Shown here: positions 9,442 to 23,948 of the stretch, piece after piece
Layout of the letters: each line of letters begins with the position of its first letter
How positions within the stretch are numbered: position 1 is the stretch's first letter
Source: Haloferax massiliensis
GTDB taxonomy: Archaea; Halobacteriota; Halobacteria; Halobacteriales; Haloferacaceae
Length of the DNA: 64,000 bases
NCBI RefSeq assembly: GCF_001368915.1
Contig: NZ_CSTE01000001.1
Location: forward strand, 693,884-757,883
Direction of reading: 5' to 3'
Made by a program: the position numbers and the translations under genes
Notes under the pieces: generated by a model
Seen by the model: the letters and a program-made list of their open reading frames with translations, nothing else
What the model was told of the DNA's origin: nothing
Database searches by the model: none

Positions 9442-11295
9442 TTATCGGTTGAGGGTGACGTTGTTGAGCTTCTGACGGCTCGGACCCATCCCACCGAACG
9501 GCTCGATTTCGACGGTGTCGTACCAGAACGCCTCCTCTTTCTGGTTGTAGATGGGCAGCATCGCAACGTCCTCCCAGTTGGCCAGCTCGATGTTGACGTA
9601 GGCCTCGTCGCGGACCTGCTGGGCCTCGTCGGTCGGAGCCGGGTTGTTGACGACCTGCTGGTAGGCGTCGGTCGCCTGTTGGGCCGCGTCGCCGTTCTCG
9701 CTCGTCCAGTTGACGTACGAAATCGGACCCTGCTTGGACGTGTCCGTCTGCGGCGGGTTCATGAGCTGCAGGAAGTTGTCCGGGGCCGGCCAGTCGGCGA
9801 TCCAGCCGAGGGTGTACGCTTCGAGCTGGCCGTTGCGGCCGCGTTCGAGGAGCGTCGAGAAGTCGGCCTTCTGAATCTGCATGTTGACGTGGGCGGACGC
9901 GAGCTGGTCGCGGAGGATGCTCGCCATCTCCTCCCACGCGTTGGAGTTGTACTGGGTCCACTGGACCTCGAACTGGTTGTCCGGGCCGTAGCCGGCCTCC
10001 TCCATGACCTGTCGGGCGGCCTCGATGTCCGTCTCGCCCGCGCTGTACGGGTAGTCGGAGCTGACGAGGTCGCTCGCGGCCTGCGCGCCGCCGGGGAAGA
10101 TGGTCGGGGGCGTAAAGAGTTCCGCCGCGGAGCCGCGGCCCTTGAACACTTCCGAGACCATCTGGTCTTGGTTCAGGACGTAGGCGAACGCCTGACGGAC
10201 CGCCTTCGGGACCTTGTTCATGTTGAAGCCGACGTAGTAAATCGACAGCGTCGGGACGCCGACGTAGTTGAGCGTCTTCCCGTTGCGGACCGGGCCGTAC
10301 GTCCCGATTTCGCGGCCGTACTCGTCGGTCGACTCCACCTGGGCCAGTCCGGGGTCGTACTGCGCGGTGGGCAGCGTGAAGTAGTCCGCGTTCTCGTTCA
10401 TCGCGTAGTTGTAGCGGGCCGTGTCGTCCTCGATGACCTGCCAGCGGACGTTGTCGACCTGCGCGGCCTGCCCGTAGTAGTCGTCGTACTTGGAGACGGC
10501 CGCGGCGGTGCCCTGTTCCCAGAAGGCGAACTCGAACGGACCCGCGCCGATGGGGTTGTTCGACGCGAACTCGGTGTACTCCATCTGGCCGTCGTGGCCC
10601 TCGATGTCGCCGAGGACGCCCTCGGGGAGGGCGGCGAAGGAGGTGTAGGCGAACATCTCAAGGGTGTCGTGGAACGGCTCCGAGAGGTTGACGACGAGTT
10701 CGGTCTCCGTCTCGCCGACTTCGAGGCCGAGCGAACCGGGTTTGTACACCTCGGTCTCCTCGCCGTCCTGCGTGACGGTCTCCGTCTCGTGTTCGACGCC
10801 GACGGAGTCGAGGATGAAGTAGGCGCGGCGGCTGTTCTCGGAGGCCGCGAGGCGCTCCCACGAGTAGATGAAGTCGGAGGCGGTGACCTGCTCGCCGTTG
10901 TGGTAGGTGGCGTCGGCGAGCTCGAACGTGTAGGTCGTGAAGTCGTCGGAGACCGTGTAGTCCGCGGCGAGTTCGTTTTCGACCGTCGGGAGGGCGTTCT
11001 GGTAGGACATCAAGCAGTCGAAGACCTGCTGGATGAGGATGCCCGACGACGTGTCAGTCGCGGCGACGGGGTCCATCGTCGTGATGGTCCCCGAGAGGAT
11101 GCGGTTGAACACCGAACCGGACAGCTCCGTGCCCGTGTCCTCTTGGGTCGTCGCGGTGGTGGTTCCCTCGCCACCGGATTCGGTCGTCGTCTCTTCACCG
11201 TCACCGCCGGTACAACCGGCGAGGGCGGCGGCCGTGGCGGCTCCACCCGTTGCCTTCAGAAAGCGGCGACGCGAGAGTTTGTTAGTGTCTGGCAT
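9442..11295 (-). CDS. dppA: Dipeptide/oligopeptide ABC transporter substrate-binding lipoprotein DppA
   Basis: Extracellular solute-binding protein of family 5 (SBP_bac_5), 617 residues. The N-terminus has a twin-arginine signal (SRRRFLKATGG) followed by a lipobox ending AGC at about residue 28, then a Thr/Glu/Gly-rich linker, so it is exported folded by Tat and anchored by lipid. Family features include the opening AADYTVSDDFTTYTFEL and the hinge region NQDQMVSEVFKG. It is first in the dpp operon and upstream of the permeases. The peptide specificity cannot be read from sequence. Confidence 0.94.
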   Translation of the reverse strand: MPDTNKLSRRRFLKATGGAATAAALAGCTGGDGEETTTESGGEGTTTATTQEDTGTELSGSVFNRILSGTITTMDPVAATDTSSGILIQQVFDCLMSYQNALPTVENELAADYTVSDDFTTYTFELADATYHNGEQVTASDFIYSWERLAASENSRRAYFILDSVGVEHETETVTQDGEETEVYKPGSLGLEVGETETELVVNLSEPFHDTLEMFAYTSFAALPEGVLGDIEGHDGQMEYTEFASNNPIGAGPFEFAFWEQGTAAAVSKYDDYYGQAAQVDNVRWQVIEDDTARYNYAMNENADYFTLPTAQYDPGLAQVESTDEYGREIGTYGPVRNGKTLNYVGVPTLSIYYVGFNMNKVPKAVRQAFAYVLNQDQMVSEVFKGRGSAAELFTPPTIFPGGAQAASDLVSSDYPYSAGETDIEAARQVMEEAGYGPDNQFEVQWTQYNSNAWEEMASILRDQLASAHVNMQIQKADFSTLLERGRNGQLEAYTLGWIADWPAPDNFLQLMNPPQTDTSKQGPISYVNWTSENGDAAQQATDAYQQVVNNPAPTDEAQQVRDEAYVNIELANWEDVAMLPIYNQKEEAFWYDTVEIEPFGGMGPSRQKLNNVTLNR

Positions 11296-12191: not shown

Positions 12192-15100
12192 GTGCGCGAG
12201 GAGGACTCCCGGTACTTCCGTCGCATCGAAGCCCGCCTCGACGAGGCGTTCGACCTCGCGGAGGCCGCGAAGGCGACGGGGTACGACCCGAAGACCGAAG
12301 TCGAGATTCCGGTCGCCAAGGACATGGCCGACCGCGTCGAGAACATCCTCGGCATCGACGGCGTCGCAGAGCGCGTCCGCGAACTCGAAGGCGAGATGTC
12401 CCGCGAGGAGGCCGCGCTCGAACTCGTGACCGACTTCGTCGACGGCAACGTCGGCGACTACGACTCCCGCGAGGGCAAAGTCGAGGGCGCGGTCCGCACC
12501 GCCGTCGCCCTCCTCACCGAGGGGGTCGTCGCCGCGCCCATCGAGGGCATCGACCGCGTCGAAATCCTCGAAAACGACGACGGCACGGAGTTCGTCAACG
12601 TCTACTACGCCGGTCCGATTCGCTCGGCGGGCGGCACCGCGCAGGCGCTGTCCGTGCTCGTCGCCGACTACGCCCGCTCGCTTCTCGACATCGACGAGTA
12701 CAAGGCCCGAACCGACGAGGTCGAGCGCTACGTCGAGGAGATAAACCTCTACGACAAGGAGACCGGCCTCCAGTACTCGCCGAAGGACAAGGAGTCGCGC
12801 TTCATCGCCGAGAACATGCCCATCATGCTCGACGGCGAGGCCACGGGCGACGAGGAGGTCTCGGGCTACCGCGACCTCGAACGCGTCGACACCAACTCCG
12901 CCCGCGGCGGCATGTGTCTCGTCATGGCCGAGGGCATCGCCCTCAAGGCCCCGAAGATTCAGCGCTACACCCGCCAACTCGACGAGGTCGACTGGCCGTG
13001 GCTCCAAGACCTCATCGACGGCACCATCGGCAAGGACGACGGGAAGGCCGCGAAAGCCGACGACGCGGGAGAGGGCGAAGCCGAGGGCGACGAGGCGGAC
13101 GCCGACCCGGACGCCGACGACGCCGAGAGCGAGGCCCCCGACGGGCCGACTCGCGTCGAACCCGCGACCAAGTTCCTCCGCGACCTCATCGCGGGCCGCC
13201 CGGTGTTCGGCCACCCCTCCGCGCCCGGCGGCTTCCGCCTGCGGTACGGCCGCGCCCGCAACCACGGCTTCGCGACCGCGGGCGTCCACCCCGCGACGAT
13301 GCACATCGTCGACGACTTCATCGCCACCGGCACGCAGATCAAGACCGAGCGCCCCGGCAAGGCCGGCGGCGTCGTCCCCGTCGACTCCATCGAGGGGCCG
13401 ACGGTCAGACTCGCCAACGGCGACGTGCGCCGCATCGACGACCCCGAGGAGGCCGAGGAGCTACAGAACGGCGTCGAGAAGATTCTCGATCTCGGCGAGT
13501 ACCTCGTCAACTTCGGCGAGTTCGTCGAGAACAACCACCCGCTCGCGCCGGCCTCCTACGTCTACGAGTGGTGGATTCAGGACTTCGAGGCGACCGAGGC
13601 CAACGTGCAGGCGCTCCGCGACGACCCCGCCGTCGACCTCGAAGCGCCGTCGGTCGAGCGGGCCCTCTCGTGGGCGACGGAGTTCGATGCCCCGCTCCAT
13701 CCCACCTACACCTACCTCTGGCACGACATCTCGGTTGACCGGTTCGACGCGCTCGCCGACGCCGTCGCGGCCGGCGAGGTCGTCGCCGCCGAAGCCGACG
13801 GGGGCACGGCCGCCGCGCTCGAACACGAAAACGAACCCGAGCGCGGACTGGAGGGCACGCTCGTCCTCGACAACACGCCCGAGATTCGGGAGGCGCTCGA
13901 ACACCTGCTCGTCGCCCACCGACAGACCGACGAGACGCTTCGCGTCCCCGTCTGGCGACCGCTCGCCCGGAGCCTCGGCCTCACCGACGACCGCGAGCGG
14001 ACGTGGGAACTCGCCGACCTCTCCGAGCGCGCCCGCACGTGGGACGGCGGCGACAACGCCGTCGAGGCCGTCAACGAGGTCGCGCCCTTCGCCGTCCGCG
14101 AGCGCGCGCCGACCCGCATCGGCAACCGCATGGGCCGCCCGGAGAAGTCCGAGCGCCGCGACCTCTCTCCTGCGGTCCACACGCTGTTTCCCATCGGCGA
14201 GGCCGGCGGGAGCCAACGCGACGTAGGCGACGCCGCCAGACACCGCGGCGAGTCCGGCAAGCGCGGCCAGATTTCGGTCCGCCTCGGCCGGCGCAAGTGC
14301 CCCGACTGCGGCGCGTTCGGCTTCAAGTCGAAGTGCCCCGACTGCGGCGGCCACACCGAACCCCACTACGAGTGCGACGACTGCGGGACCGTCCTCGAAC
14401 CCGACGAGTCCGGCCGCGTCTACTGCGAGCGCTGCGACTGGGACGTCGAGAGCGCCGAGTGGCAGGACATCGACCTCAACACCGAGTACCGAAACGCTCT
14501 CGAACGCGTCGGCGAGCGCGAGTCGTCGTTCCAGATTCTCAAGGGCGTGAAGGGGCTCACCTCCGCGAACAAGACGCCCGAACCCATCGAGAAGGGCGTC
14601 CTGCGCGCGAAACACGACGTGTCGTCGTTCAAAGACGGCACCGTCCGCTACGACATGACCGACCTGCCGGTCACCGCGGTCCGCCCCGAGGAACTCGACG
14701 TGACGGCCGACCACTTCCGCGAACTCGGCTACGAGACCGACATCGACGGCGAACCCCTCCGGTTCGACGACCAACTGGTCGAACTCAAAGTCCAGGACAT
14801 CGTCCTCTCGAACGGCGCGGCGCAGCACATGATGCAGACCGCCGACTTCGTCGACGACCTCCTCGAACAGTTCTACGGCCTCGACCGGTTCTACGAAATC
14901 GAAGAGCGCGACGACCTCATCGGCGAACTCGTCTTCGGGATGGCCCCTCACACCTCCGCCGCGGTCGTCGGCAGAGTTATCGGATTCACGACAGCAGCGG
15001 TTGGATACGCGCATCCGTACTTTCACGCCGCGAAACGCCGGAACTGCTTCCACCCGGAGACGAAGGTCTGGTACCGAGACGAGACCGACCGGTGGCGATA

Positions 15101-17282
15101 CGACGAGATTCGAACGCTCGTCGAGGAACGGCTCGATGACCCGGAGACCGACGATTTCGGGACGCTCGTTCAGGAACTGGACGGGGACGTGTACGTTCCG
15201 TCTCTGACCAGAGATGGTCGAGAGACGATTAAACCGGTCGGAGCCGTCTCCAAGCACGTCGCACAGGACCACCTCGTCCGCATCGAGACCCGCGGCGGGA
15301 GAGAACTAACGGTCACCCCGGACCATACGGTGATTCGAGCCGACGACGGCGGATTCACGCGCATTCCCGCGCACGAACTCGCCGAAGGCGACGCGCTTCC
15401 GTCGCCCAAGCGCGTCGACATCGACGCGGACCCGGCCCAGTTCGACTTGCTCGCGGAGTTCCTGCACGGCGAGTCGATACCGGCCGAAGACCTGATGATT
15501 CGGGGGCTCGGCCCGGACCGAATCCGGTCGCTCTTCGACGAGCATACCGAAGCGAGCGGCTACCTGAAACCGGTCGCCGAGCGACTCGGACGGAGCGATT
15601 CGACGGTTTACAACTGGGTCTCTCGCGACAGCGTTCCGGCCTCGGTATTCGTGGAGATCCTCGGAAACGTCGAAACGGTCGTCGACGTGCTTCCGCGTGA
15701 GCTTTCTCTCGGTGTCCGTCGCGACACCGCGACCGTTTCGAGAGTGCTCGATATCGACGAATCATTCGGAACTGTACTGGGGTACTACGCCGCAGAAGGA
15801 TTCACGAGGGCATCGCCCGGAAACTTCTACCAGACGACAATCTGTATCCCGGACGAACCCGCCCGCGAACGCATCCTCGATACCGTTAGCGAAGCACTCG
15901 GCGTCGACGCGTTCGAGGAAAACGAGTGGAAGGTCACGGTTTCGAGTCGACTCGTCCAGTCGCTGTTTGCGGACGTTATCGGATGCGGGTCGCGTGCCGA
16001 GGACAAACGCGTCCCGGACTCGGTACTCACCGGCCCCGAGCCGGTTCTTCGGTCCTTCCTGTCGGCGTACTTCTCCGGCGACGGAAGCGCGTCTTCGGAC
16101 CGCGTGGAGATTCGCGCGCACACCGTGAGCGATGACCTCAAACGCGACCTCGTTGCCGCGCTCAAACGCTTCGGCATCGCCTCGAAGACCTACTCCGAGC
16201 GCCGAACGCCACAGACGGGTGCGGTGGCGGAGTTCTACGACGAAGACGAGGTCCCGACGTTTGACTCGTGGGTCCTCAAACTCACGTCGGAGAACGCGGT
16301 TCGATTCGCCGAGGAAGTCGGTTTCCACCTCCCCCGAAAGAGCGAGGCGCTGGCGAGCGCGCTCGACGACACGGACGTCCGAGGCCAGCGCCTCTTCTCG
16401 GACGGCGGGGATACGTGGCTCGACGAAGTCGTCTCGGTCGAATACCTCGAAAGTGACGTCGACCACACCTACTCGTTGACCGTCGAAGACACCAACTCTC
16501 TCGTCGCCAACGACCTCCACGTCGCGCAGTGCGACGGTGACGAAGACTGCGTCATGCTCCTCATGGACGGTCTTCTCAACTTCTCGAAAGAATATCTCCC
16601 CGACAAGCGCGGCGGGCAGATGGACGCGCCGCTCGTCATGTCCTCGCGCATCGACCCCTCGGAAATCGACGACGAGGCGCACAACATGGACATCGTGCGG
16701 CAGTACCCCCGCGAGTTCTACGAGGCGACGCTGCGGATGGAAGACCCCGACGACTGGGAGGACGAGGTCACCATCGCCGAGGAGTACCTCGGAACCGACC
16801 GCGAGTACACGGGGTTCGACCACACCCACGACACGACGGATATCGCCGCCGGCCCGGACCTCTCTGCGTACAAGACCCTCGGGTCGATGATGGACAAGAT
16901 GGACGCCCAGCTGTTCCTCGCGCGGAAACTCCGCGCAGTGGACGAAACTGACGTGGCCGAGCGCGTCATCGAGTACCACTTCCTCCCCGACCTCATCGGG
17001 AACCTCCGCGCCTTCTCGCGGCAGGAGACGCGGTGTCTCGACTGCGGCGAGAAGTACCGGCGGATGCCGCTTTCGGGCGATTGCCGGGAGTGCGGCGGCC
17101 GGGTGAACCTCACGGTCCACCAGGGCTCCGTGAACAAGTACATGGACACCGCGATTCAGGTGGCGGAGGAGTTCGACTGCCGCGACTACACGAAACAGCG
17201 GCTCGAAGTGCTCGAAAAGAGCCTCGAATCGGTCTTCGAGAACGACAAAAATAGGCCATCGAGTCTTGCGGAATTCATGTAA
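12192..17282 (+). CDS. polD2: DNA polymerase D large subunit (DP2), intein-containing, 3' end replaced by element
   Basis: Catalytic subunit of the archaeal replicative polymerase PolD, working with DP1 and PCNA. The 1,696-residue precursor holds a 495-residue intein (residues 952-1446); splicing would leave 1,201 residues. The catalytic DxD aspartates of the double-psi beta-barrel family are in CDGDEDC directly after the intein (Asp1448 and Asp1450). Zinc-ribbon cysteines lie near residues 700-755 (CPDCG, CPDCGG, CDDCG, CERCD) and again near the C-terminus (CLDCG, CRECGG). An acidic low-complexity insert occupies about residues 284-320. The start is GTG, 2 bp after the previous gene. The last 12 codons, after the attachment core, come from the integrated element: the tail is DKNRPSSLAEFM, while the original DKNKQSGIADFM lies at 23910-23948. 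DP2 tails carry a PCNA-interacting peptide. Confidence 0.96.
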   Translation: MREEDSRYFRRIEARLDEAFDLAEAAKATGYDPKTEVEIPVAKDMADRVENILGIDGVAERVRELEGEMSREEAALELVTDFVDGNVGDYDSREGKVEGAVRTAVALLTEGVVAAPIEGIDRVEILENDDGTEFVNVYYAGPIRSAGGTAQALSVLVADYARSLLDIDEYKARTDEVERYVEEINLYDKETGLQYSPKDKESRFIAENMPIMLDGEATGDEEVSGYRDLERVDTNSARGGMCLVMAEGIALKAPKIQRYTRQLDEVDWPWLQDLIDGTIGKDDGKAAKADDAGEGEAEGDEADADPDADDAESEAPDGPTRVEPATKFLRDLIAGRPVFGHPSAPGGFRLRYGRARNHGFATAGVHPATMHIVDDFIATGTQIKTERPGKAGGVVPVDSIEGPTVRLANGDVRRIDDPEEAEELQNGVEKILDLGEYLVNFGEFVENNHPLAPASYVYEWWIQDFEATEANVQALRDDPAVDLEAPSVERALSWATEFDAPLHPTYTYLWHDISVDRFDALADAVAAGEVVAAEADGGTAAALEHENEPERGLEGTLVLDNTPEIREALEHLLVAHRQTDETLRVPVWRPLARSLGLTDDRERTWELADLSERARTWDGGDNAVEAVNEVAPFAVRERAPTRIGNRMGRPEKSERRDLSPAVHTLFPIGEAGGSQRDVGDAARHRGESGKRGQISVRLGRRKCPDCGAFGFKSKCPDCGGHTEPHYECDDCGTVLEPDESGRVYCERCDWDVESAEWQDIDLNTEYRNALERVGERESSFQILKGVKGLTSANKTPEPIEKGVLRAKHDVSSFKDGTVRYDMTDLPVTAVRPEELDVTADHFRELGYETDIDGEPLRFDDQLVELKVQDIVLSNGAAQHMMQTADFVDDLLEQFYGLDRFYEIEERDDLIGELVFGMAPHTSAAVVGRVIGFTTAAVGYAHPYFHAAKRRNCFHPETKVWYRDETDRWRYDEIRTLVEERLDDPETDDFGTLVQELDGDVYVPSLTRDGRETIKPVGAVSKHVAQDHLVRIETRGGRELTVTPDHTVIRADDGGFTRIPAHELAEGDALPSPKRVDIDADPAQFDLLAEFLHGESIPAEDLMIRGLGPDRIRSLFDEHTEASGYLKPVAERLGRSDSTVYNWVSRDSVPASVFVEILGNVETVVDVLPRELSLGVRRDTATVSRVLDIDESFGTVLGYYAAEGFTRASPGNFYQTTICIPDEPARERILDTVSEALGVDAFEENEWKVTVSSRLVQSLFADVIGCGSRAEDKRVPDSVLTGPEPVLRSFLSAYFSGDGSASSDRVEIRAHTVSDDLKRDLVAALKRFGIASKTYSERRTPQTGAVAEFYDEDEVPTFDSWVLKLTSENAVRFAEEVGFHLPRKSEALASALDDTDVRGQRLFSDGGDTWLDEVVSVEYLESDVDHTYSLTVEDTNSLVANDLHVAQCDGDEDCVMLLMDGLLNFSKEYLPDKRGGQMDAPLVMSSRIDPSEIDDEAHNMDIVRQYPREFYEATLRMEDPDDWEDEVTIAEEYLGTDREYTGFDHTHDTTDIAAGPDLSAYKTLGSMMDKMDAQLFLARKLRAVDETDVAERVIEYHFLPDLIGNLRAFSRQETRCLDCGEKYRRMPLSGDCRECGGRVNLTVHQGSVNKYMDTAIQVAEEFDCRDYTKQRLEVLEKSLESVFENDKNRPSSLAEFM
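15045..16529 (+). mobile_element. Intein with LAGLIDADG homing endonuclease inside polD2
   Basis: A 495-residue intein is inserted between Asn951 and the Cys that begins the catalytic motif CDGDED. Residue 1 is Cys (CFHPETKVWY), block B shows TPDHTVIR, and the C-terminal block reads DHTYSLTVEDTN...ANDLHVAQ before the +1 Cys. The endonuclease part carries two LAGLIDADG-type motifs, VLGYYAAEG and LSAYFSGDG, with intervening DNA-binding-like segments. The last residue is Gln rather than Asn and the penultimate is Ala rather than His, an unusual splice end; a terminal Gln is also known for the Pyrococcus abyssi PolII intein at this position. Reading frame and endonuclease motifs are intact, so it may still home. 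Base composition is slightly less GC-rich than the extein. Confidence 0.93.
17243..17251 (+). repeat. attL core (CGACAAAAA)
   Basis: Left copy of the 9-bp direct repeat that flanks the element, in the codons for Asn-Asp-Lys-Asn near the polD2 C-terminus. The exact crossover cannot be fixed from one sequence, because the true core may be a few bases longer with mismatches. Confidence 0.75.
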
Positions 17283-17315
17283 TCTACGCCGCCCGGGAAT
17301 TGTTAATATCTGGTG

Positions 17316-17330
17316 AAAAAGATTTAATAT
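17316..17330 (+). promoter_or_regulatory. Strong BRE/TATA promoter at the element's left end
   Basis: AAAAAGATTTAATAT matches a purine-rich BRE followed by a TATA box. Its centre lies about 26 bp before the A of an ATG at 17351, so transcription should start there, rightward into the hairpin region. A second TATA-like stretch (GTTAATATC) lies 20 bp upstream. Confidence 0.6.
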
Positions 17331-17350
17331 CCCTGTCTGCTAATGGAGTA

Positions 17351-17650
17351 ATGAATCAAGGACCTAGTGGGGGCACGCTTTGAACGTGTCCCCCGTGCAA
17401 ATAGGTATGTCTGTGTATTTGTGCCGCTGTTAAAAGCGGCGGTGCGACAGACAGCCTAAGCGTTGTTCACTGGAGCGTAGTTGATGACTACGCTGCAACT
17501 GAACAGCCATGCATAGGTTGGCAACGCTGGGGTAGTGCGCTCCGCCCGTGCTACTACCGCTTGACAGTCTCAACGTTATTGCATCACGTTCGTTCAAGAA
17601 CGTGGTGTACTGACAACGGTTGTTCATTCATCGTATCGTGCGCCACTGGT
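17351..17650 (+). ncRNA. Candidate structured RNA of the integrative element
   Basis: Downstream of a strong promoter, about 250 bases hold a dense run of perfect or near-perfect stems. One is 17369-17394 (GGGGGCACG against CGTGTCCCCC, one bulge). Stem 17409-17414 with 17447-17452 encloses the 6-bp hairpin 17423-17440. Stem 17459-17465 with 17522-17528 (AGCGTTG/CAACGCT) encloses 17465-17469 with 17500-17504 and the 7-bp hairpin 17475-17493. Others are 17531-17536 with 17553-17558, and the 7-bp hairpin 17585-17604. Open frames here are very short or start with TTG. The first transcribed bases encode a 10-codon frame (MNQGPSGGTL) ending in the first hairpin, which could be a leader peptide. No known RNA family (tRNA, SRP, RNase P) matches what I recall. 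The 3' end is uncertain. Confidence 0.5.
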
Positions 17651-17764
17651 TGCACGGCACTTCATAGCTGCTTCTGTGGCGAGATTTCTTCATCCCGACC
17701 ACCTGACACCCGGTCGGTTATCCGAATCCGCAGAGACGGAGGTGTCGAAACTAACTAATCAACC

Positions 17765-17905
17765 ATGTCTGCCAAAGAAACAACCACAATCACCGTGAGT
17801 ACCGACTTTAGGGACGCTATTTATAATCAAAAGTGTCCGGGTGAATCGTACGAGGATGTGCTACGTGCGCACCTCCCCGCCGACCTGATCGAAACCGAAC
17901 AGTAA
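17765..17905 (+). CDS. Small ribbon-helix-helix/VapB-like protein (46 aa)
   Basis: A 46-residue product beginning MSAKETTTITVSTDFRDAI and containing ESYEDVLRAHL. The beta-strand TTTITVSTDF, then a helix, a turn with GESYEDVL, and a second helix are the layout of archaeal ribbon-helix-helix or antitoxin-like proteins. No toxin gene of PIN or RelE type is beside it, so it may instead be a small transcription regulator of the element. It lies directly after the candidate structured RNA. The ATG follows AT-rich sequence. Confidence 0.62.
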   Translation: MSAKETTTITVSTDFRDAIYNQKCPGESYEDVLRAHLPADLIETEQ

Positions 17906-18062
17906 GCCGTGTGCGTTTTGCTAAGCCAATAACCGAACACAAAGTGGATAGTATAGCAATCGCCGTCCGGGTGTGGATGTGTAGGAGCAACCACCCGTTT
18001 GACGGCGTCACACAACTACGCGGGAGTGACCCCGCGCATCTAGCGAATTAACTGCTTTAGAA

Positions 18063-18197
18063 ATGAGTTCTTCGACAACTACGACGAGAGGCATCGACGC
18101 GATAGACCAACACCGTGACGACCTCGCGGACCTTGCTAACTCCGACCTCCCCTGTGCCTACCTTGCTGAGGCGTTGCTGGAGGTGAGTGAGTCGTGA
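18063..18197 (+). CDS. Short element protein (44 aa), unknown function
   Basis: A 44-codon frame, acidic, ending with DLPCAYLAEALLEVSES. It is too small for a confident family call. Support comes from position: its stop overlaps the start of the next frame (GTGA), which overlaps the replication gene in turn, giving a translationally coupled trio. A conserved-looking segment LANSDLPCAYLAEALL could be a short helix pair. The preceding 157 bp (17906-18062) hold a GCGGG/CCCGC hairpin at about 18021-18036 but no convincing gene. Confidence 0.5.
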   Translation: MSSSTTTTRGIDAIDQHRDDLADLANSDLPCAYLAEALLEVSES

Positions 18198-18361
18198 AGG
18201 GGTACAGGAATGGGGATTCCGTCGAATACACGTACGAGAGCGACCCACAAAGTCGTTACGGTCCTCGGTTTTGTGACGGGTGTTTCACTCCAGCGTTCAC
18301 TCACGTCGACGGCGTCGCCTTGTGTCGAACCCACGCAAACCGGGTGATTCGTGATGAGTGA
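18194..18361 (+). CDS. Small zinc-finger-like element protein (55 aa)
   Basis: Starts GTG at 18194, overlapping the upstream stop by 4 bp, and ends at 18361 inside the start of the replication gene. The 55-residue product has CDGC and a later CRTH, a CxxC...CxxH set that could hold one zinc ion. Small zinc fingers next to replication genes are common in haloarchaeal plasmids and viruses. Function unknown; a regulatory or DNA-binding role is a guess. Confidence 0.55.
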   Translation: MKGYRNGDSVEYTYESDPQSRYGPRFCDGCFTPAFTHVDGVALCRTHANRVIRDE

Positions 18362-20726
18362 CCGGGACGTCCTCGCGGAGCGATTACAGGACGCGGGCTT
18401 ACTCGAAAAGCGTCTAATCCCTGTTAAGGACGGCGAGAAGCGGTCGCCCGTCTACCACAATGACGCTTCAAACCGCGAAAGTGGGTTTGGATCCTTAACT
18501 GGAAACTACGGTGTGTATGCCGGAGCAACGCCCGACGGCGGGCGCTGGTTAATCGACGTGGATATTGACGACTACTCTGACTCGGCGGATTCTGAGGCCC
18601 TTCAAGCCGTCAATGAGTTGCCTGAGACGTTCACCGTTGCAAGTCCACACACCGACGGTGTGACGGGCGGGCACAGGTACTACTACATTGACTCGAAGGA
18701 CGTTCACAAGTCCATCGAGACTGTTGCCAACGCGAAGAATCCCGGCATGAGTTGGGGAGAGATTCGCGTTCACAACCAGTACGTGGTCGGTCCCGGTTCC
18801 CAACTCGATGGGTGTGGGAAAGACTGGTGCGATGAGTGTTCCACGCCCGACGGCGGTCGATACGAAATTGCAACTGACGCGCCGATTGCTGAGATTACGC
18901 TTCCCGAGTTGTTCGACGTACTACGGGCGGACCAAACGCCGGAGGATGCGTCACAAGGCGCTGGTGGTGTGGATACGACGCGAGACACACCTAATGCTGA
19001 CGGCGACACCTCACGGGCGCGCGCTGTCACTAAACACTACGACAACATCAGCGATTATCTGTTGTATGGTGCGTCTGACCGGAGCGAACAGGACTTCCAC
19101 GTGTGTTGTCGTATGATTGAACACGGGGTTCCTAAGTCGGAAGTCTATCAACTTCTTGCGGACAATTCAAACAGCAAGGTCGACTCTCCAGACGCCTCAC
19201 GAAACTACTGGCAACGGACGTGGGACCGTGCGCGCAAGTCTGTTGGGTCCGATGCGAATACCGAAACGCTCCCCGGTGAAACACGTTCTGACGGCGGTGT
19301 TGCAACGACGGCGTCACCAATGAATGGTCCACAGAACGCCGTGAGTGGCGGCGAGTGGTCGCACGTGTACCAGCAATACGTCAGTGCATCTGACGCAGAT
19401 GAACGCAAACCTGCCCGATTCGCGGCCACAGAACTACTGTCTGAGGACCACCATTGGGCTAACCTCGAAGAAAATGACGTCCTGTACGGCTACGATTCCG
19501 ACCGGGGAATCTACCAGCCTACGGGCGAGAAACAAGTTCGGGAGTTGTTGGTTGCTAACCTTCGGGAAGAATATAATAGAACAGAGAAGTCTGAGATCCT
19601 AGACCAACTACGCGGCCGACACACCGTGAGTCAGGACGAAATGGGTGGCCCGGCGGACCACATCCCCGTACGGAACGGTGTTGTGAGGGTGCAACCCCAA
19701 GGGTTGGGACTACAAGAACACAATCCAGAGCATCTATTTCTTGGGTCGGTCGAAGCCGAATACGACCCCGGTGCCGAGTGTCCGCAATTCCGTGACTTCT
19801 TACGTGACGTCGTTCCGCGTGGGAGTGATAGAAAGAAGCTCCAAGAATACGCGGGCTACACGTTGCACCATTGGGGCTTGCCGTACCACAAAGCCCTGTT
19901 TCTAGTCGGACCAACCGCAAGCGGGAAGTCCACCTTCCTCGATACGATCCGGGCGGTCTTAGGGTCGAATACTGTGGTGAGTCTCACACCACAGGAATTG
20001 ACTGGAGAACGGTTCGCCGGCGCGGAGTTGTTCCAGAGTTGGGCTAACTTCCGAAACGACATTCCTAGTTCGCTAATCACCGACACAGGCGCGTTCAAGG
20101 AGATAACCGTTGGTGACAGTATCAAGGCCGAACAGAAATTCAAGGACCCATTCCGGTTTGAACCGACGGCGAAACATCTGTTCTCTGCCAACCAACTCCC
20201 CGACGCCGAAACAGATGATGAGGCGTTTTACCGCCGTATCCTGTTGGTTCCGTTCCCGTCGACCGTCCCGAAGGCCGAACGTGACCCACACCTCGACGAG
20301 AAACTCCAGTCGGAACTCTCTGGTGTGCTTAACTGGATGCTTGAAGGCCTCCAGCGATTGATGCGACAAGGAACGTTCACCGGCGACAGAACGCCCGGAG
20401 AGACACAGAGAACGTGGGAGAAGTGGGGCAACACAGTCGATCGGTTCCGTGAATTGTGTCTGGAGGAATCCAGCGGTGATTCCCTCCCCAAGAGTACGGC
20501 GCACAAGGCATACCATCGGTTCTGTGAAGCTGAAAGCCTCCCGGCTGAGACTCAGCACAAAATGACGCGCCGACTCAAGAATGAAGGCATAGCCGACGGC
20601 AGAGCCACAGTCAATGGCAAACAACAGCGCGTCTTTGTCGGGGTCCAACTCACGAGCAAAGGTGAGAGTTACTTGAACGACACAGGCGACGACTCACGGA
20701 ACAGCGGACTTAGACACTTTGACTAA
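18354..20726 (+). CDS. PrimPol/SF3-helicase replication protein of the element
   Basis: A 790-residue replication initiator of the plasmid/phage P4-like type. The N-terminal 200 residues form a primase-polymerase domain with the metal-binding IDVDIDDY (about residues 67-74), SPHTDGVTGGHRYYY (about 97-111) and VVGPGS. A variable linker (about 200-340) follows, then the D5_N-like region, then the SF3 helicase with Walker A GPTASGKST (about 518-526) and downstream motifs ANFRNDIPSSLI and LFSANQLPDAETDDEAF. The C-terminal part resembles a winged helix. The ATG at 18354 is preferred to the GTG at 18351; both overlap the preceding gene. It likely primes and unwinds the element's DNA, and a cluster of 9-bp repeats starts in its last codons. 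Confidence 0.9.
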   Translation: MSDRDVLAERLQDAGLLEKRLIPVKDGEKRSPVYHNDASNRESGFGSLTGNYGVYAGATPDGGRWLIDVDIDDYSDSADSEALQAVNELPETFTVASPHTDGVTGGHRYYYIDSKDVHKSIETVANAKNPGMSWGEIRVHNQYVVGPGSQLDGCGKDWCDECSTPDGGRYEIATDAPIAEITLPELFDVLRADQTPEDASQGAGGVDTTRDTPNADGDTSRARAVTKHYDNISDYLLYGASDRSEQDFHVCCRMIEHGVPKSEVYQLLADNSNSKVDSPDASRNYWQRTWDRARKSVGSDANTETLPGETRSDGGVATTASPMNGPQNAVSGGEWSHVYQQYVSASDADERKPARFAATELLSEDHHWANLEENDVLYGYDSDRGIYQPTGEKQVRELLVANLREEYNRTEKSEILDQLRGRHTVSQDEMGGPADHIPVRNGVVRVQPQGLGLQEHNPEHLFLGSVEAEYDPGAECPQFRDFLRDVVPRGSDRKKLQEYAGYTLHHWGLPYHKALFLVGPTASGKSTFLDTIRAVLGSNTVVSLTPQELTGERFAGAELFQSWANFRNDIPSSLITDTGAFKEITVGDSIKAEQKFKDPFRFEPTAKHLFSANQLPDAETDDEAFYRRILLVPFPSTVPKAERDPHLDEKLQSELSGVLNWMLEGLQRLMRQGTFTGDRTPGETQRTWEKWGNTVDRFRELCLEESSGDSLPKSTAHKAYHRFCEAESLPAETQHKMTRRLKNEGIADGRATVNGKQQRVFVGVQLTSKGESYLNDTGDDSRNSGLRHFD

Positions 20727-20925
20727 CCCGAAACAAAAGTGTCTTTGGGGTCTTAACCCATTCAAACCCTTCTAAACCACAGTATCGGGTGGTCCGTTAG
20801 ACACTTTTGTCTCATTAATCGCGTACGCGGGTGTGCGTGTGCAATGGTTCAAAGTAAAGTGTCTAATCAAACCGGAGGACGTGGGTGTGAAGGGCTGAGA
20901 CGGCTACAAACCGCAAAGACACTTT
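20712..20925. repeat. Five-copy 9-bp repeat cluster, candidate iterons/origin
   Basis: The 9-mer AGACACTTT occurs at 20712-20720 (+), 20736-20744 (-), 20799-20807 (+), 20856-20864 (-) and 20917-20925 (+). All copies are exact, with strictly alternating orientation and larger spacings of about 60 bp. Flanks are partly conserved (often TT or AA before and TG or TT after). The first copy overlaps the last codons of the replication gene, and the rest fill the 291-bp gene-free gap before 21018. This is the arrangement expected for an origin bound by the adjacent initiator; an operator array is the alternative. Confidence 0.68.
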
Positions 20926-21017
20926 GTTTTAGCGGATTGTGCAATGACCCTTCGTGGCGAGCACTTGGTATCGTGTGAGAACGAACCGGCGGAATCCGGG
21001 TAGCTAATTGTACTAAG

Positions 21018-22549: not shown

Positions 22550-23845
22550 CTATTCGTTCAGTTTCTCCAGTAGGGCTTTCTTCACTTCGGGGTCCTCCAA
22601 GAGGTGGTCTAGCGTATCTATCTTCCCTTGTGTGTCGGTATCTTCGGGGTCAGTTTGCGCATACGACTGTTTCACGTCACCGCCAATCTGTTGCTGTGCC
22701 TGTTGTGCATCGGGTGTGTAGACAGTCCCACATTTCGAGCAGGCCTTCGCACCGGGCGCAAGAGGGTTGTTGCAGATCCGACACACGTCCGGAGTAAACG
22801 ACGATTCTTCCTGTGGTTCACGGATTCCGAAGCCTTCCTCAGCCTTTCGGGCGTGGTCATCACCGGAGAGGTGTGCGTACGTGGTCTCCATGACCGTACT
22901 ATCAGCGGCGTGTCCGATGAGATACTTGATTGTGTCATTGGGGAGGTCATGGTCCCGCTTTGCGATAGTCACGAAGTTGTGACGCATCATGTGCGGGTGC
23001 ATTGGTTTTGAGATCTCACTTGCCTCTTTGATATTCTGCATAACCTTCCGAATAGTCTCACCACTAACCGGCGTGGTTGGGTCGACGGCAGAATAACTGG
23101 GACGGGCGGTGATTAGATAGTGCTCGTCATCACTGGGGTCCGGGTGGTAGTTGTTCAGCCAGTCTTGGACTGTGGCCTTTGCCGCAAGGAGTGGTCGCTT
23201 CCCATTCCGCTCGTCAGCCCCTTTCAGTCCATCCACGTTCGGGTTTAGACGGAACGTACCTTCTTGTGGGTTCACGTCCCGGATTCGGAGCGTCCGAAGG
23301 GCCTCGCGGCGCTGACCTGTGTAAATCAGTAGGTCGAAAATCAGCAAGTCGCGCGGGTTTGAAATGGAATCACGGGCGGTGTGGATTTCCTCGCGCGTCA
23401 GCATATCGTTAGGGTCGACCGACGTGTCTTTCTTGTCGAATAGCGGAATCTCGGCTGGTTCAATCCCGAAGTCGTGGTACCCATAGAACTTGCGTAGTGC
23501 GGCCTGATAACTCCGGAGCGTTCCTTTCTGAAGGCCTTTGTCCTGAACGCTAGGGTGGCTCCCGTCGTACATCTGCTGAACCGCCTGCTTTAATTCATCC
23601 ACAGACGCCGTTGTTAGGTTAGCATCCCGTGCAAAGACGTTCAGGCGGTACAACCACGATGTGAGGGTTCCGGGTTCACGGTAACTCTCCCCGGCCGGCT
23701 TAGCGACCATGACATTGTGCTCGTCGTACGCATTGATTAGTTCACGAATCGCCTCAGCGGTATCTTGGTCGACTTCCCCACGTTCGACGTAGTTCTCAAA
23801 AGTCTGTTTCCGACGTTCGTACTTCTCTCGCGGTGTGGTTCCCAT
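22550..23845 (-). CDS. Tyrosine recombinase (integrase) with C-terminal zinc ribbon
   Basis: Catalyses integration at the polD2 tail. Residues 1-150 form a SAM-like N-terminal DNA-binding domain, and the catalytic domain has Arg in TGQRREAL (about 179), HPHMMRH (about 283-289), the second His in LIGHAAD (about 312) and the probable nucleophile Tyr in TTYAHLS (about 323). After the catalytic domain comes a zinc ribbon (CRIC and CSKC, about residues 355-372) and a Gln-rich, acidic tail. All catalytic residues are present, so the enzyme may be active. A TATA-like ATATTATTTAAG lies upstream on the minus strand near the right end of the element. Confidence 0.93.
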   Translation of the reverse strand: MGTTPREKYERRKQTFENYVERGEVDQDTAEAIRELINAYDEHNVMVAKPAGESYREPGTLTSWLYRLNVFARDANLTTASVDELKQAVQQMYDGSHPSVQDKGLQKGTLRSYQAALRKFYGYHDFGIEPAEIPLFDKKDTSVDPNDMLTREEIHTARDSISNPRDLLIFDLLIYTGQRREALRTLRIRDVNPQEGTFRLNPNVDGLKGADERNGKRPLLAAKATVQDWLNNYHPDPSDDEHYLITARPSYSAVDPTTPVSGETIRKVMQNIKEASEISKPMHPHMMRHNFVTIAKRDHDLPNDTIKYLIGHAADSTVMETTYAHLSGDDHARKAEEGFGIREPQEESSFTPDVCRICNNPLAPGAKACSKCGTVYTPDAQQAQQQIGGDVKQSYAQTDPEDTDTQGKIDTLDHLLEDPEVKKALLEKLNE

Positions 23846-23908: not shown

Positions 23909-23917
23909 CGACAAAAA
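23909..23917 (+). repeat. attR core (CGACAAAAA)
   Basis: Right copy of the 9-bp repeat, 63 bp from the integrase start. Downstream bases continue in frame into the original polD2 tail, which fixes this as the host-element junction. Confidence 0.75.
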
Positions 23918-23948
23918 CAAACAGTCCGGCATCGCGGACTTCATGTGA
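23910..23948 (+). pseudogene. Orphaned original 3' tail of polD2
   Basis: These 39 bp read DKNKQSGIADFM and stop, exactly as long as the element-borne tail at 17244-17282 (DKNRPSSLAEFM). The stranded version contains QSGIADFM, a good match to the PCNA-interacting peptide pattern Q-x-x-hydrophobic-x-x-aromatic. It has no start and is no longer expressed as part of polD2. If the element excised, this tail would be rejoined. Confidence 0.85.

Follow-up and report, generated by a model that had tools for sequence, protein, structure and literature searches.

What is the dense cluster of hairpins that lies at the left end of an integrated element in Haloferax massiliensis, and what could it do there? 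The window, i.e., the whole stretch of 64,000 nucleotides that we analyzed (contig NZ_CSTE01000001.1, positions 693,884 to 757,883), had been annotated in a preliminary description, which proposed a folded RNA behind a promoter at this place. The fold is indeed beyond chance. The plus strand of 17340-17625 (286 nt) reaches a minimum free energy of -122.6 kcal/mol, whereas its shuffled versions average -93.3 +/- 4.8 (z -6.1), and 0 of 200 shuffles folded equally well. All the stems listed in the preliminary description are present in the predicted structure (Table 1). We also folded 24,868 windows of 200 nt, drawn from related loci and from the 10-30 kb part of the window. Values below -4.26 make up 0.5% of this survey, and the cluster appears in it as a series of windows with values from -4.6 to -5.2. 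The minus strand of the cluster also folds better than chance, but less so than the plus strand (-98.9, z -4.1). Since the minimum-energy structure of the plus strand includes 13 G-U pairs and the minus strand is the weaker of the two, an RNA is favored over a DNA cruciform.

Table 1. Positions in the window of the hairpin cluster, its promoter, and the main features of the element
Feature	Position	Strand	Basis
Left att repeat (D3)	17243..17280	.	71% identity to 23909-23946
Putative promoter region: BRE/TATA and direct repeat TTAATATC	17303..17331	+	sequence inspection, inferred
Candidate leaderless 10-codon ORF (MNQGPSGGTL), from predicted start site, ending in the P1 loop	17351..17383	+	inference only
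Structured leader or candidate RNA, stems P1-P5 (~275 nt)	17351..17625	+	predicted fold
P1, hairpin of 9 bp with a bulge, loop CUUUGAA	17369..17393	+	predicted fold
P2, extended hairpin: outer stem around a long hairpin	17402..17458	+	predicted fold
P3, branched: stem of 7-8 bp around a short stem and a hairpin of 8-9 bp	17459..17528	+	predicted fold
P4, hairpin	17531..17558	+	predicted fold
P5, long hairpin, 12+4 bp	17575..17614	+	predicted fold
Gene of a small RHH-like protein of 46 aa, the first downstream of the leader	17765..17905	+	homologues align
orfA, small protein of 44 aa, conserved ahead of replication genes	18063..18197	+	
PrimPol - D5_N - SF3-type helicase replication protein	18354..20726	+	Pfam Prim-Pol, D5_N, DUF5906; TIGR01613
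Long stem-loop directly 3' of the primase gene, putative pRN1-type origin	20727..20935	.	DNA z -5.85
Tyrosine integrase of the element	22550..23845	-	
Right att repeat, with the polymerase gene's original 3' end	23909..23946	.	

By inspection, a promoter-like site, GAAAAAGATTTAATA, occupies the place where a TATA/BRE promoter had been proposed, with its TATA box (TTTAATA) at 17323-17329, about 25 nt upstream of 17351, and the context around the box reads GAAAAAG-ATTTAATA. The octamer TTAATATC occurs twice over this promoter, 21 bp apart (17303-17310 and 17324-17331), and our guess is that it could serve as the operator of the RHH protein. It is possible that the ATG at 17351 would open a leaderless ORF of 10 codons. 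The claim that no plausible long frame crosses the region was borne out, as the ORF list of the window contains none of at least 50 aa spanning the cluster and the two frames of 65 aa that overlap it have no match in Pfam. ARAGORN identified no tRNA or tmRNA in the window.

The element itself measures 6.7 kb and is bounded by imperfect att repeats, which share an identical core of 9 bp, CGACAAAAA, as revealed by repeat comparison and inspection. The insertion point is the 3' end of polC, which encodes the large subunit of DNA polymerase D and has its stop codon at 17282. From left to right, the element carries the hairpin cluster, the 46-aa RHH-like gene, orfA, orfB, the gene of the PrimPol/D5_N/SF3-type protein, small unknown ORFs, and the integrase gene on the minus strand. 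The proposed position of the cluster, beside attL and ahead of the RHH-like and replication genes, is thus confirmed. Several of the integrases with at least 60% identity found in other haloarchaea adjoin polC, which makes this a family of elements targeting the gene. The group (L034, L084-L089, L095, L146, and the integrase of the window) shows polC 3'-end insertion across several haloarchaeal families, and the left end of these elements provides a replacement 3' end for the polymerase gene. The large subunit encoded at 12192-17282 has 1696 aa. Its counterpart in L089 has 1200 aa, the difference apparently being due to an intein-like insertion.

The proximity of the cluster to an integration site raises the possibility that its function is at the DNA level, as an accessory replication site, a single-strand initiation signal, or a set of integrase arm sites beside attP. 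The cluster is less than 100 bp from attL, which adjoins the start of the integrase gene in the circular form, and folds above chance were obtained for both strands. We nevertheless regard this explanation as improbable, given the G-U pairs and the strand bias of the fold, and because a stem-loop of the pRN1 type already occupies the expected place of the origin and is conserved in L034. The equivalent stem-loop of L034 lies at 10024-10225. Four GTGTC/GACAC boxes are spaced about 60 nt apart in the stem-loop of the window, with nearly the same spacing in L034. Long strong folds are likewise found 3' of the primase in L036, L039, and L142. In pRN1, the stem-loop 3' of rep is necessary for replication, even if its position can be moved (PMC4234260). 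The stem-loop of the window is likely to be a replication origin of this type, and the left hairpin cluster is therefore probably not the origin.

The resemblance to the pRN1 family of Sulfolobus plasmids goes further. As in their orf56 RHH - orf904 PrimPol-SF3 helicase arrangement, an RHH gene precedes the PrimPol-SF3 helicase gene, a long stem-loop follows immediately 3' of rep, and tblastn links the element to plasmids of the pRN type. Among pRN plasmids, the structure of the stem-loop is kept while its sequence changes (PMC4234260), and the element is similar to them in this retention of structure despite sequence change. Hence, it can be regarded as a haloarchaeal replicon of the pRN1 type with a clear origin candidate. 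In pRN1, 64 bp including the promoter suffice upstream of the operon (PMC4234260), whereas the element has about 440 bp, with the hairpin-rich leader, ahead of the RHH gene. It also has the additional orfA and orfB, is integrated at a polymerase gene, and resides in a haloarchaeal host.

How would the cluster be transcribed, and where would the transcript end? Runs of T are at most three long within 17340-17915, and inspection revealed neither a clear second promoter between the cluster and the RHH gene nor a TATA-like site directly upstream of that gene. The simplest transcript thus crosses the cluster into the replication genes, which makes a leader likelier than a free-standing RNA. An SD-like GGAGGTG is found at 17738-17744, 20 nt upstream of the RHH ATG, and in the nearest relative, L034, GAGGTGAT lies about 8 nt upstream of the RHH start. 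We therefore favor, with about an even chance of being right, the explanation that the cluster is a structured 5' leader of the replication operon of the element, restraining or timing its expression, with the RHH protein repressing the promoter. The cluster could also be an RNA processed from this operon's transcript, and its probable function is in the control of expression or copy number. Transcription would start near 17351, at the promoter inside the left end of the element, and would produce a leader of about 410 nt followed by RHH, orfA, orfB, and PrimPol/helicase, presumably as a single transcript. The fold of the leader may limit or time translation or elongation along this operon, and repression of the promoter by the RHH protein could add to this, keeping down the copy number or the replication linked to excision. 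The preliminary description had offered three roles for the RNA, namely, copy-number control, regulation of integration, and partnership with an element protein. The first of these, in the sense of controlling copy number or the expression of the replication genes, agrees best with the neighborhood.

The same promoter could instead produce a free-standing noncoding RNA that works in trans, e.g., by targeting the replication mRNA or partnering with a protein of the element. This is rather unlikely in our opinion, if more probable than a role at the DNA level, even if the cluster has its own promoter-like site and a compact fold of many hairpins, with a bias for the sense strand and no ORF spanning it. 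No terminator-like signal is found 3' of the fold in the window, and neither conservation among 392 genomes nor an Rfam family speaks for such an RNA (see below). In L034, a T5 run follows the fold, which is compatible with a separate RNA in that element.

Relatives of the RHH-like protein that would act on the promoter match DUF7557 and, weakly, VAPB_antitox, and the copy of the window has no match in Pfam. The orfA protein has the motif DLxxSDLPxxxxAxALLE and precedes replication genes in many haloarchaeal elements, with no family match in Pfam, NCBIfam, or PHROGs.

The proposal that the RNA is undescribed stands in part. No family of Rfam release 15 reached the gathering cut-off anywhere in the 64-kb window, in agreement with the earlier remark that no known archaeal RNA family fits, and a permissive search returned nothing real, its best match in the region being a C/D-box RNA with 11.6 bits where 50 are needed (E 4.1). 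The status of an RNA family is not supported, since we found no homologue and hence no compensatory change. Searches with blastn for the leader in 197 genomes, plasmids, and phages gave no homologue. A covariance model of this single copy, derived from its sequence and predicted structure, was significant across 392 haloarchaeal genomes only for the window itself; the next-best match, at 0.0137 per genome, is expected by chance over that many genomes. Run on all the loci collected, the model likewise yielded hits at chance level. Viral contigs searched by primase and integrase alignment and by origin box contained no related element. We discarded a dispersed repeat or MITE, as the full region has a single match among 197 genomes, its own included. 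Several motifs noticed by eye were also rejected. The module of a hairpin followed by CCATG was unspecific in a descriptor scan, its CCATG being the start-codon context in several loci, the motif GCGTTC..GG..CCATG failed the k-mer control against shuffles, and nine leaders shared no more k-mers than their shuffles did. In three leaders, an anticodon-like heptaloop, C[CU]NNNAA, caps the long hairpin that comes first, and it looked enriched (leaving out the window, 2 of 4 against 3 of 693 elsewhere), but it was picked post hoc and was not seen again when further orfA loci were examined.

Related elements do have hairpin clusters at the same place. The closest one (G163, locus L034) uses the same insertion site, with 76% identity in the primase and 68% in the integrase, and its cluster, ahead of the RHH and orfA genes, reaches z -5.0 with no blast-level similarity to the copy of the window. 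A third polC element (G432, locus L089) has one with z -4.2, also preceding its RHH/orfA genes. The three clusters cannot be aligned, and the covariance model of the window copy misses the other two. Six loci (L084, L085, L087, L088, L095, and L147) lack a hairpin cluster next to polC. This absence from other elements of the integrase group and the failure to detect conservation are what one would expect if the cluster had no function and were a chance hairpin-rich stretch or the debris of an old insert in a fast-changing element end. The shuffle statistics, the run of extreme values in the survey, and the similar clusters at the equivalent place in two relatives make this the least probable of the explanations considered.

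Hairpin-rich stretches are also found away from polC, upstream of orfA in L091, L093, and L096, and the sense strand folds better than the antisense in 4 of the 5 other structured leaders. The L093 and L096 leaders had no relatives within their genus. In a first set of loci, strong folds preceded orfA in 5 of 16 cases, against 4.6% of 474 other ORFs (P = 0.001; P = 0.006 without the window). When a further, independent group of orfA loci was scored with a different z method, only about 2 of 20-odd had strong folds, so the association is weaker than it appeared at first. With considerable doubt, we suggest that fast-evolving structured regulatory RNAs, free-standing or leaders, may front the replication operons of haloarchaeal integrative elements, remaining rich in folds while their sequences change beyond recognition.

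Control of replication at two levels has a known analogue. The rep operon of pMV158 includes the RHH repressor CopG and is also controlled at the RNA level by RNAII, an antisense RNA of repB (PMC4485353). By analogy, the element may combine an RHH repressor in the operon with an RNA-level step. It differs in that we identified no antisense promoter or antisense RNA, and in being archaeal with a PrimPol, whereas pMV158 has a rolling-circle Rep.

Haloarchaeal mRNAs are mostly leaderless. A highly folded leader of about 400 nt would therefore be an unusual layer of control for a haloarchaeal replication operon, and RNA-level copy control in archaeal PrimPol replicons has, to our knowledge, hardly been studied. 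Large ornate RNAs with many hairpins, such as GOLLD and ROOL, are found in mobile elements. The cluster resembles them as a multi-hairpin RNA candidate in a mobile element, but it is smaller and has no Rfam match at all, and our searches yielded no conserved family for it.

Some further structured stretches were observed along the way. A 65-aa ORF of L187, a locus from the same genus, lies upstream of an orfA-like gene, and a compact branched hairpin (920-1017) separates its start from a TATA-like site. The chromosomal region 1480-1710 of L154 is rich in hairpins and precedes a small zinc-finger-like ORF. One of its hairpins resembles P1 (GGGGCACG-CUCAGAA-CGUGCCCC); considering all the genomes searched, the similarity of this region to the window is no better than chance. 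Finally, the gap between the RHH gene and orfA (17906-18062) also bears hairpins and looks by eye related to 8962-9081 of L146. The integrase of L146 is 70% identical to that of the window, and for a study of covariation the two gaps form a more closely related pair than any that the main cluster offers.
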